Shown here: positions 40,433-42,755 of the stretch, piece by piece
Layout of the letters: each line of letters opens with the position of its first letter
How positions within the stretch are numbered: position 1 is the stretch's first letter
Assembly (NCBI RefSeq): GCF_000515255.1
Contig: NZ_KI911559.1
Span: 778,149-842,148 of the forward strand
Source of the DNA: Rhodovibrio salinarum DSM 9154
GTDB lineage: Bacteria; Pseudomonadota; Alphaproteobacteria; Kiloniellales; Rhodovibrionaceae
DNA: 64,000 nucleotides
Direction of reading: 5' to 3'
Made by a program: the position numbers and the translations under genes
The notes under the pieces: generated by a model
What the model was told of the DNA's origin: nothing
Seen by the model: the letters and a program-made list of their open reading frames with translations, nothing else
Database searches by the model: none

Positions 40433-41431
40433 ATGCGCGATATCGACCAGCCTTCCCAGGTCGGCTGCTCCATCGACCTGTCGGCCAATGGCAAGCAGCA
40501 CGGCCACATGATGGTGCCGCATTCCCGCAACGAGAGCGCGTGGGGCACGCTGATGGTGCCGATCGCCAGCGTGAAGAACGGCGATGGGCCGGTCATGCTG
40601 GTCACGGCCGGCAACCACGGCGACGAGTACGAGGGCCAGCTGGCGGTGCTCAAGCTGTTGAACCGGCTCAGTGCCGACGGCTTCAAGGGACAGCTGATCG
40701 CGATCCCGGCGCTCAACCTGCTGGCTCAGCGCGCCGACACCCGGGTCAGCCCGCAGGACAACGGCAACATGAACCGGGCCTTCCCCGGCCATCCGCGCGG
40801 TACCGTCACCCAGCGGGTGGCGCACTTCGTCTGGCAACAATTGATGCCGCGCGCGGATATCGTGGTCGACCTGCACTCCGGCGGACATTCGCTCAACTTC
40901 GTGCCGTCGGCGGTGATGCACGAGCTGCCCGACAAGGAGCTGCAGGCGAAGACGGAGGCCGCGCTGAAGGCGTTCGGTGCGCCGGTGGCCCTGCAGCTCG
41001 TCGAGCTCGACGCGGTTGGCATGCTCGATACGGCGGCGGAGGAGATGGGCAAGCTGTTCATCTCCACCGAGCTCGGCGGCGCGGCGATGGTGACGCCGGA
41101 GACGGTGGGCGTCGCCGATCGCGGGCTCGACAACCTGCTCAAGCACTTCGGCATGATCGAGGGGGCGCCGAGCGGCCACCAAAGCCGGATGATGACCACC
41201 CCGGACGGTGCCTACACGATGTCCCATCACGCCGGCCTGTACGAGCCGCTGGTCGAGTTGGGGGAGGAGGTCAAGGCCGGGCAGGAGATCGCCCGCGTGC
41301 ACTTCCTGGAGGACGGCGGGCATGCACCGGTCGCCTACACCGCCCCGATCTCCGGCCTGCTCTACTGCCGCCGCGTCCAGGGCTGGTGCGGCCGCGGCGA
41401 CACCTTGGCCCTGGTCGCGCAAGACCTGTAG
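40433..41431 (+). CDS. doeB: N2-acetyl-diaminobutanoate deacetylase-like (DoeB), M14/AstE family
   Basis: A 332-residue zinc-dependent carboxypeptidase-like deacylase. The metal ligands are in GNHGDEYEGQ (H62, E65), and the later DLHSGG supplies the next histidine. The N-terminal pattern GKQHGHMMVPHSRNESAWGTLMVPI is as I recall for DoeB, which removes the acetyl group of N-acetyl-diaminobutyrate in ectoine degradation. No doeA, doeC or doeD gene is nearby, so the role is tentative; aspartoacylase-like activity is possible. It is convergent with prfB across an inverted repeat. Confidence 0.8.
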   Translation: MRDIDQPSQVGCSIDLSANGKQHGHMMVPHSRNESAWGTLMVPIASVKNGDGPVMLVTAGNHGDEYEGQLAVLKLLNRLSADGFKGQLIAIPALNLLAQRADTRVSPQDNGNMNRAFPGHPRGTVTQRVAHFVWQQLMPRADIVVDLHSGGHSLNFVPSAVMHELPDKELQAKTEAALKAFGAPVALQLVELDAVGMLDTAAEEMGKLFISTELGGAAMVTPETVGVADRGLDNLLKHFGMIEGAPSGHQSRMMTTPDGAYTMSHHAGLYEPLVELGEEVKAGQEIARVHFLEDGGHAPVAYTAPISGLLYCRRVQGWCGRGDTLALVAQDL

Positions 41432-41437
41432 GGCGGT

Positions 41438-41611
41438 TCACCACCAAGGCACGAAGGCACCAAGAGGCCGTGAAGCCCGCGATCTAGAAGAAGGAGCTCG
41501 TTCGGTAGTCGGCCTCCAGTTGGTAAAAGCGCCCGCGATTTGATCCGAGGCGAGACTCCCCTTTGGGCCGTGTTCGCACGGCCTCTTGGTGCCTTCGTGC
41601 CTTGGTGGTGA
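41438..41611. repeat. 35-bp perfect inverted repeat element between doeB and prfB
   Basis: Arms 41438-41472 and 41577-41611 are exact reverse complements over 35 bases and enclose 104 bases of other sequence. The arm motif (ACCAAGGCACGAAGGCACCAAG-like) belongs to a type of short repeat I recall from many bacterial genomes. No transposase or obvious target-site duplication is present. It sits between two convergent genes and could form a long RNA or cruciform hairpin. Confidence 0.85.
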
Positions 41612-41620
41612 GCTTCTCCT

Positions 41621-42755
41621 TTAGGCGCGGGCGTCCTCGTCCTCCGCGTCCTGGTCCGGCGCGACCTTCTGGGCGAGGGCGGCTTCCAGGAAGTCGGTGA
41701 TGTCGCCGTCCAGCACCTTCTTGCTGTCGGTGCGTTCGACGCCGGTGCGCACGTCCTTGACCATCTGGTAGGGCTGCAGAACGTAGGAGCGGAGCTGGTT
41801 GCCCCAGCCGATGTCCGACTTCTGGTCGGCGGTTGCCTGAGCCGCTTCCTCGCGGCGCTTGAGTTCGCGCTCGTACAGGCGCGCGCGCAGCATGTCCCAA
41901 GCTTGTGCCCGGTTCTGGTGCTGCGAGCGGCCGGACTGGCAGCCGACCACGATGCCGGTGGGGATGTGGGTCAGGCGCACGGCCGAATCGGTCGTGTTGA
42001 CGTGCTGTCCGCCCGCGCCGGAGGAGCGGAAGGTGTCAACGCGCACATCCTTGTCCAGGATCTCGACCTCGATCCGGTCGTCGATCACCGGGTAGACCCA
42101 GACGCTGGCGAACGAGGTGTGTCGGCGTGCCTGGCTGTCGAACGGCGAAATCCGTACCAGCCGGTGCACGCCGCTCTCGCTCTTCAGCCAGCCGAAGGCG
42201 TTGTGGCCGGAGATGCGCAGCGTCGCCGACTTGATGCCGGCTTCCTCGCCGGGCGTCTCGGCGATCTGCTCGACCTTGTAGCCTTGGCTCTCGGCCCAGC
42301 GGACGTACATGCGCCGGAGCATGTGCGCCCAGTCCTGCGCCTCCGTGCCGCCGGCGCCGGCGTTGACTTCGAGGTAGGTATCGTTGGCGTCCGCCTCGCC
42401 GGAGAGGAGGGACTCGATCTCCATCTTCTGGACACGACCCTGCAGGTCGCGCAGGGCTTCCTGCGCTTCCTGGACGGTATCCTCGTCCTCTTCCGAATCT
42501 CCGAGGGATTCCAGTTCGATCGCGTCTTCCAGTTCCTGATCGAACTGCTGGACGGTCTTGATCCGGGTCTCCAGATGCTGACGCTCCTTCATCAGCTCCT
42601 GGGCCCGGTCCGGATCGTTCCAGATGTTCGGGTCTTCGGCGTAGGCGTTCAGTTCGTCGAGGCGGCGCCGGGCGTTATCCCAGTCAAAGATGCCTCCTCA
42701 GCAGGGCCAGCGATTCGCGAATCGCGCTGGCCAAGCTTTCGGTTTCCGCGCGCAT
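41621..42755 (-). CDS. prfB: Peptide chain release factor 2, with programmed +1 frameshift
   Basis: RF2 reads UGA and UAA stop codons and triggers peptide release. The long frame has the SPF anticodon-like motif ([10 protein letters not shown]), GAGGQHVN (the GGQ catalytic loop) and all RF2 domains. It has no start of its own at the right place; the true ATG is at 42755, and the first 23 codons end CTT TGA C, the classic RF2 frameshift site. Shifting +1 joins L23 to D24 and gives 377 residues, the normal length. An AGGAGG lies just before the site to promote the shift. Synthesis is thereby autoregulated by RF2 level. It is preceded by mrcA on the same strand. Confidence 0.95.
42683..42698 (-). 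promoter_or_regulatory. prfB programmed frameshift site
   Basis: On the minus strand, AGGAGG (42698-42693) is followed by CAT and then CTTTGAC (42689-42683). The internal Shine-Dalgarno, the CUU slippery codon and the UGA-C stop match the E. coli prfB site. Confidence 0.95.

Follow-up and report, generated by a model that had tools for sequence, protein, structure and literature searches.

A 174-bp gene-less palindromic unit of Rhodovibrio salinarum as a putative member of a mobile-element family associated with GxxExxY genes

The gene-less palindromic unit that separates two convergent genes in Rhodovibrio salinarum DSM 9154 probably belongs to a family of small mobile elements as a non-autonomous, MITE- or REPIN-like form, with the GxxExxY protein as the candidate driver; we have no data from a search for HUH transposases. 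Related inverted pairs are dispersed in the genome and one of them encloses a GxxExxY gene, matched arms are found at most GxxExxY genes, repeats and gene are associated at the level of whole genomes, and orthologous sites occur in full, empty and decayed form.

The window (the whole 64-kb stretch of DNA that was analysed) belongs to a 4.18-Mb genome in one contig, C1. The unit consists of two 35-nt arms, 100% complementary to each other and separated by 104 nt (Table 1), so that the perfect inverted repeat described in the initial annotation is exact in both its coordinates and its complementarity. GTAG and its complement are both absent from the arm. The unit fills the gap between a DoeB-like deacylase gene and prfB, starting 6 bp past the stop of the former and ending 9 bp from that of the latter. 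The deacylase scored 377.3 bits against TIGR02994, just below the NCBIfam equivalog cut-off of 402.7. The predicted RNA fold of positions 41432-41620 has an energy of -116.5 kcal/mol (z -9.8, equalled by 0 of 200 shuffles). Within the window the arm core CCAAGGCACGAAGGCACCAAG, allowing up to three mismatches, occurs at two places only, which are the two arms, and it was matched in 0 of 100 dinucleotide shuffles of the window. A remnant of a GxxExxY gene was looked for in the spacer, and none was detectable.

Table 1. Features of the 174-bp unit and its surroundings (window positions) and inverted pairs of the R. salinarum genome (C1 positions)
Feature	Position	Strand	Remarks
DoeB-like deacylase gene	40433-41431	+	TIGR02994; flanking gene, outside the element
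Whole gene-less palindromic unit	41438-41611		174 bp
Left arm	41438-41472	+	CACCAAG / GCACGAAG / GCACCAAG units, then AGGCCGTG
Spacer	41473-41576		104 nt, partly self-complementary in the predicted fold
Right arm	41577-41611	-	exact reverse complement of the left arm
prfB (release factor 2)	41621-42592	-	TIGR00020 above cut-off; flanking gene, outside the element
Inverted pair	near C1:256647-256846		pattern matches
Inverted pair	near C1:555814-555904		pattern matches
Inverted pair	near C1:565158-565363		pattern matches
Inverted pair, the window unit	near C1:819590-819755		pattern matches
Inverted pair	near C1:3293961-3294061		pattern matches
Inverted pair enclosing the GxxExxY gene	C1:3805264-3805785		about 520 bp; pattern matches near C1:3805273-3805780

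Across the whole genome the arm core was found at 12 places with up to three mismatches, compared with 3 for a reversed control pattern, and some of the three-mismatch places may therefore be due to chance. Together with two further pattern searches this gave at least six inverted pairs (Table 1), as well as single arm copies at C1 positions 1642588 and 1667659. Five of the pairs span 97-215 bp, and only the sixth and longest could hold a gene. It encloses a 128-aa open reading frame that is the sole GxxExxY match of the genome, with 142.7 bits against TIGR04256 (cut-off 35) and 136.6 bits against PF13366 (PDDEXK_3), and its neighbours are presumably mutL and a 3-hydroxyisobutyrate-dehydrogenase-like gene. 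The upstream arm of this element matches the right arm of the window unit at 97% over 36 nt and the left arm at 97% over 34 nt, and the match runs past the repeat motif into AGAGGCCGTG. Nothing in the window itself could have revealed this full-length form with its GxxExxY gene. The initial annotation had suggested that the arms might be two opposite copies of one dispersed repeat, or a MITE-like unit, and that arms found nowhere else and conserved only as a terminator would refute this; given that related arms are present at other places of the genome and that the pair is gene-less and looks MITE-like, both suggestions are borne out and the refuting outcome did not arise.

Similar units were seen elsewhere. 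Among 32 loci fetched from four further genomes (G183, G128, G223 and G264) and picked for motif matches or GxxExxY, 26 had copies in both orientations, four in one orientation and two had none, and at 23 of the 26 the order was the same as in the window unit. One unit of G183 had six more matching places at 82-95% identity, several of them at contig ends. All 16 units that were folded gave z values between -6.3 and -11.9 relative to mononucleotide shuffles, with the proviso that they had been chosen as inverted pairs.

We collected GxxExxY loci from the class search, from Sphingomonadaceae and phylum searches, from species genomes (84,980 searched, with 43 loci) and from plasmids (8 records, 4 of them read). 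Removal of 21 of the 129 loci, for a partial match, a short flank or the absence of a gene by tblastn, left 108. An inverted repeat with a score of at least 13, and more than 1 above the best of 20 shuffles, surrounds the gene at 86 of these, the arms being built of roughly 8-nt units, while among controls that kept this geometry but were displaced by 800 bp, 3 of 203 had a score of 13 or more; at 22 loci no inverted repeat was detectable. The 108 loci are not independent, since 30 are Sphingomonad loci at one fabD|fabG site and several of L232-L258 lie at another common site; the repeat was present at 29 of 30 in the former subset, at 24 of 27 in L232-L258 and at 33 of the remaining 51. Judged by record titles, hosts with the repeat include Planctomycetaceae, Dehalococcoidia, Bacteroidetes, Akkermansia, Nitrospirae, Elusimicrobia, Cloacimonadota and Dadabacteria. 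Full-length elements are mostly of about 430-590 bp, with a GxxExxY protein of about 130 aa and terminal inverted repeats that comprise two to four units, each about 8 nt long. Phage records contained no GxxExxY match at E 1e-5.

Two side observations concern the shape and the letters of these repeats. The GxxExxY gene at L060 / L145 (G128 C110) is not enclosed by arms but has a palindromic unit upstream of it. Other loci (L078 (G097), L113, L237 and L257) have arms of other unit types, namely CACGGATTT, CACAGAT and CGCAGAT, which suggests that the family of repeats extends beyond CACNAAG.

The letters of the arms vary widely between elements (CACGAAG, CACCAAG, CACAGAG, CGCGGAG, CGCAGAT and others), and the two arms of one element nevertheless match: over the 108 loci the mean arm-match score was 18.2 for the two arms of one element and 8.5 for arms of different elements, a result equalled in none of 10,000 permutations, and the 30 Sphingomonad loci taken alone gave 22.8 for own pairs versus 13.2 for cross pairs, again equalled in none of 10,000. 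In only 46 of 108 cases (13 of 30 in Sphingomonads) did no other arm match better than the element's own downstream arm, because related elements have similar arms. Arm similarity also tracks protein similarity, with a Mantel r of 0.55 (n=75) that remained at 0.51 (n=31) after L202-L258 were excluded.

Repeat number and gene presence were compared in two sets of genomes. In the class set (241 genomes), five genomes had at least two matches of pattern CACSAAGRCACSAAG, and four of them carried GxxExxY, versus 12 of the other 236 (p 6e-5); the repeat-rich G223 had no GxxExxY match. For the phylum set (397 genomes, GxxExxY presence at E <=0.001), at least eight matches of pattern CACVRAGRCACVRAG went with the gene in 16 of 22 genomes versus 28 of 375 (p 1.5e-12), and at least four in 18 of 31 versus 26 of 366 (p 1.4e-11); these cut-offs were picked after the counts were known. 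One family, f183, of which 39 genomes were sampled, contributes 16 of the 22 repeat-rich genomes, and within it no significant association was found (11/16 vs 11/23, p 0.33). Outside f183 the gene was present in 5 of 6 repeat-rich genomes versus 17 of 352 others (p 3e-6), so that the association is strong across families and has not been shown inside f183. Six of the 22 repeat-rich genomes (G768, G800, G815, G827, G830 and G838) had no GxxExxY match, for which another driver, gene loss or an incomplete assembly are candidate reasons; G830 had 173 repeat matches, but also 39 control matches. Conversely, GxxExxY-bearing genomes fell below the repeat cut-off in 28 of 44 cases in the phylum set (<8) and in 12 of 16 in the class set (<2), the search patterns taking in only some arm types.

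Orthologous sites were observed both with and without the element. For the site between fabD and fabG, 397 Sphingomonadaceae genomes were searched and 37 gave a match at E <=1e-240; in 35 of these, from 19 genera, the alignment spans the element. The 29 of these 35 loci that were read all have the GxxExxY gene and a flanking inverted repeat above shuffles; the remaining 360 genomes were not read at this site. It is also filled, again with an inverted repeat above shuffles, in Sphingomonas parapaucimobilis (NZ_CP155749.1, L190:2005-4169). The site is empty in G067, with 11 nt from the fabD stop to the fabG start, in a genus with five filled members, and Sphingomonas paeninsulae likewise lacks the element there. 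The fabD|fabG element (L190, L202-L231) is either ancient, with losses, or the result of repeated insertion at one site. The radA|FAD site is filled in Bacteroides finegoldii and empty, at 13 bp, in Parabacteroides distasonis.

Decayed sites were seen at ribF|ileS in one genus (g394), in which matches were obtained for 20 of 23 genomes and the gap was readable in 14. The full GxxExxY gene was present in two gaps, and four, short at 116-203 bp, had no trace of it. Fragments of the gene remained in six (L265, 195 bp; L266, 189; L268, 198; L269, 49; L277, 51; L264, 38), and a gene fragment was absent from L274, which has a short inverted-repeat unit, and from L271, with a 499-bp gap. In L264 a short inverted-repeat unit encloses 38 bp of the GxxExxY gene at 82%, which fits an origin of gene-less units by internal deletion; given that its arm type differs from that of the full copies, the g394 site may have served repeatedly. 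The fragments of L264, L269 and L277 comprise the same 38-51 bp, around the ELK catalytic motif, and are probably one inherited remnant, with a retained signal as a possibility.

For the window site itself the comparison of the locus in relatives, which had been proposed as a check, could only be made in part, because no relative shares both flanks. The deacylase is matched best (74%) in G001, where the deacylase and prfB genes are on separate contigs, and in G006, a single contig, they are about 0.4 Mb apart. The CAC-type motif, with at most one substitution, was found in 0 of the 29 prfB loci fetched, out of 57 relatives with a match.

What kind of enzyme GxxExxY might be was approached through conservation and a predicted structure. 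Residues G29, D72, E82, K84, G109 and N113 are kept in 61 aligned sequences, chosen to be without internal stops, and the structure was predicted with a pLDDT of 97.2. Its best structural neighbour was 4ic1_G (Z 9.4, rmsd 4.3, 100 aligned), which is SSO0001, a Cas4. The neighbours were mostly PD-(D/E)XK nucleases, among them BamHI (Z 7.8), Hjc (6.9) and LHK exonuclease (6.6), and also included an fdxN-element excision factor (5.6); no neighbour other than 4ic1 reaches 8, and such values may reflect nothing more than a common arrangement. Foldseek gave no match at E <=0.001 and listed lambda exonuclease at E 0.02, while a sequence search of the PDB with the single protein found no match and a profile search one weak match, 2f8l, at E 0.22. 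On the aligned residues, of which the catalytic D72, E82 and K84 are invariant, the model with its best neighbour and the PF13366 match, GxxExxY fits the description of a PD-(D/E)XK enzyme in both catalytic residues and fold; nuclease activity is inferred from this and has not been shown, and a common fold by itself is no proof of function. The literature that we searched gives the family no mobile-element role, nor any other role, and PMC8934634, as far as its text was available, names GxxExxY only beside a reverse transcriptase.

Catalysis by GxxExxY, the recognition of hairpins, the copy mechanism and the movement of the window unit into its site are all inferences. We propose that the putative nuclease would recognise the arms of its own element, probably as a hairpin or cruciform of the palindrome, a substrate suggested by the conserved palindromes together with the matched arms. 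It would then cut at the arms or at the target, and repair after cutting would place a copy of the element in a gap between genes; derivatives without the gene but with both arms might travel with it, as REPINs do with RAYTs. Target-site duplications, which the initial annotation had suggested as a further check, were not detected: in 81 related elements, with ends known only to a few bases, there was no excess of direct repeats (best z 0.9), so that there is no insertion scar to point to.

An origin of the window unit as a conventional MITE of a DDE-transposase insertion sequence would account for a short, palindromic, gene-less unit with terminal inverted repeats, but the lack of detectable target-site duplications in those 81 elements speaks against ordinary DDE transposition, and in this genome such arms enclose a gene of a PD-(D/E)XK nuclease family (no systematic DDE search was made); we give this origin hardly any credence. 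It is very improbable, too, that the arms are merely binding or regulatory sites of GxxExxY for defence or DNA repair, spread by recombination and not by the enzyme. The conserved catalytic core and a fold resembling repair, restriction and Cas4-type nucleases would be in keeping with such a role, but turnover of elements is what the full, empty and decayed sites in one genus and the scattered gene-less copies suggest. A bidirectional terminator or mRNA-end hairpin, selected between convergent genes and not mobile, would suit a very stable fold placed 6 bp and 9 bp from the gene stops, and several other units of the genome likewise abut gene ends. On the other hand, a simple scan shows no intrinsic-terminator pattern, Rfam gave no family at E <=1, related arms are found at unrelated places of the genome and on either side of a nuclease-family gene, and none of the relatives' prfB loci that were fetched has the motif, which leaves this account improbable. 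As the whole explanation, termination is ruled out by the dispersed copies; a terminator side effect is still possible.

It is somewhat less easy to set aside the proposal that the repeat pairs are of REP/REPIN or TIRtron type and are moved by an HUH tyrosine transposase, with GxxExxY a passenger or secondary user of the ends, although we consider it unlikely. REPIN architecture, in the portion of PMC3116915 available to us, is closely similar, RAYT-like genes with inverted repeats unrelated to REPs (TIRYTs) are described in the accessible part of PMC3733652, and the repeat-rich genomes without a GxxExxY match and the non-significant result in f183 point the same way. A passenger, however, poorly explains matched arms at GxxExxY loci in many phyla, or the co-variation of arms and protein. 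Some TIRYT repeats, in that same portion of PMC3733652, have GGGGWSAS, unlike the arms described here, and a common type of terminal repeat is not excluded.

Mobility with GxxExxY as driver, our preferred reading, places these elements beside several known systems. REPINs are hairpin-forming doublets (PMC3116915, in part), and a RAYT gene stands between two REPs in inverted orientation, with which it co-varies, while the presence of RAYTs goes with REP number (PMC2817692, from the portion available). The likeness extends to inverted hairpin doublets between genes, an enzyme gene inside inverted copies, co-variation of enzyme and repeat, and repeat number in relation to enzyme presence, the last holding for GxxExxY across families only. 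The differences are that GxxExxY belongs to a PD-(D/E)XK nuclease family whereas RAYT is an HUH tyrosine transposase, and that the arms here are runs of CACNNAG-like units of about 8 nt without a GTAG tag; by analogy, the GxxExxY system would work like REPIN-RAYT without being a member of it, lacking both the GTAG tag and an HUH enzyme. TIRtrons and TIRYTs resemble it in that terminal inverted repeats enclose a small gene and in some cases also form repeat families, and differ in their HUH-motif tyrosine transposase and in the GGGGWSAS common to several of the repeats (PMC3733652, seen in part). MITEs such as RUP, NEMIS and Nezha are, in the same partial source, gene-less units of 70-300 bp with terminal inverted repeats of 15-30 bp that lie beside genes. 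The window unit shares these features and has a same-ended full-length partner in the genome, the GxxExxY element, a member of TIGR04256 / PDDEXK_3 PF13366; it differs from MITEs in that the partner does not encode an insertion-sequence transposase, and no target-site duplication was detected at element ends known only to a few bases.

Whether a class of mobile DNA found across bacteria owes its movement to GxxExxY proteins, which would spread their own gene together with gene-less hairpins, we hold to be evenly balanced. Were it so, one small PD-(D/E)XK enzyme would recognise palindromic arms of roughly 8-nt repeats, which would explain why the motif family CACNAAG / CACAGAG / CGCGGAG / CGCAGAT and others stands beside GxxExxY in many phyla and would give a common type of dispersed repeat its cause. 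It would be a second, independent case of the REPIN-RAYT lifestyle, with one small nuclease and many gene-less palindromes, and for a family that occurs in many phyla what is now a blank in annotation would turn into a mobile-DNA system that can be tested and that uses an enzyme of a new kind. No prior description of a GxxExxY element was found in the literature searched, which covered few subscription papers, and a search by motif letters returned no related paper among the matches listed. A last observation concerns G264, where units stand in tandem, with a period of 333 bp in three copies at L155:335-1282 and of about 190 bp at L156:513-1053, an arrangement like that of REP clusters.
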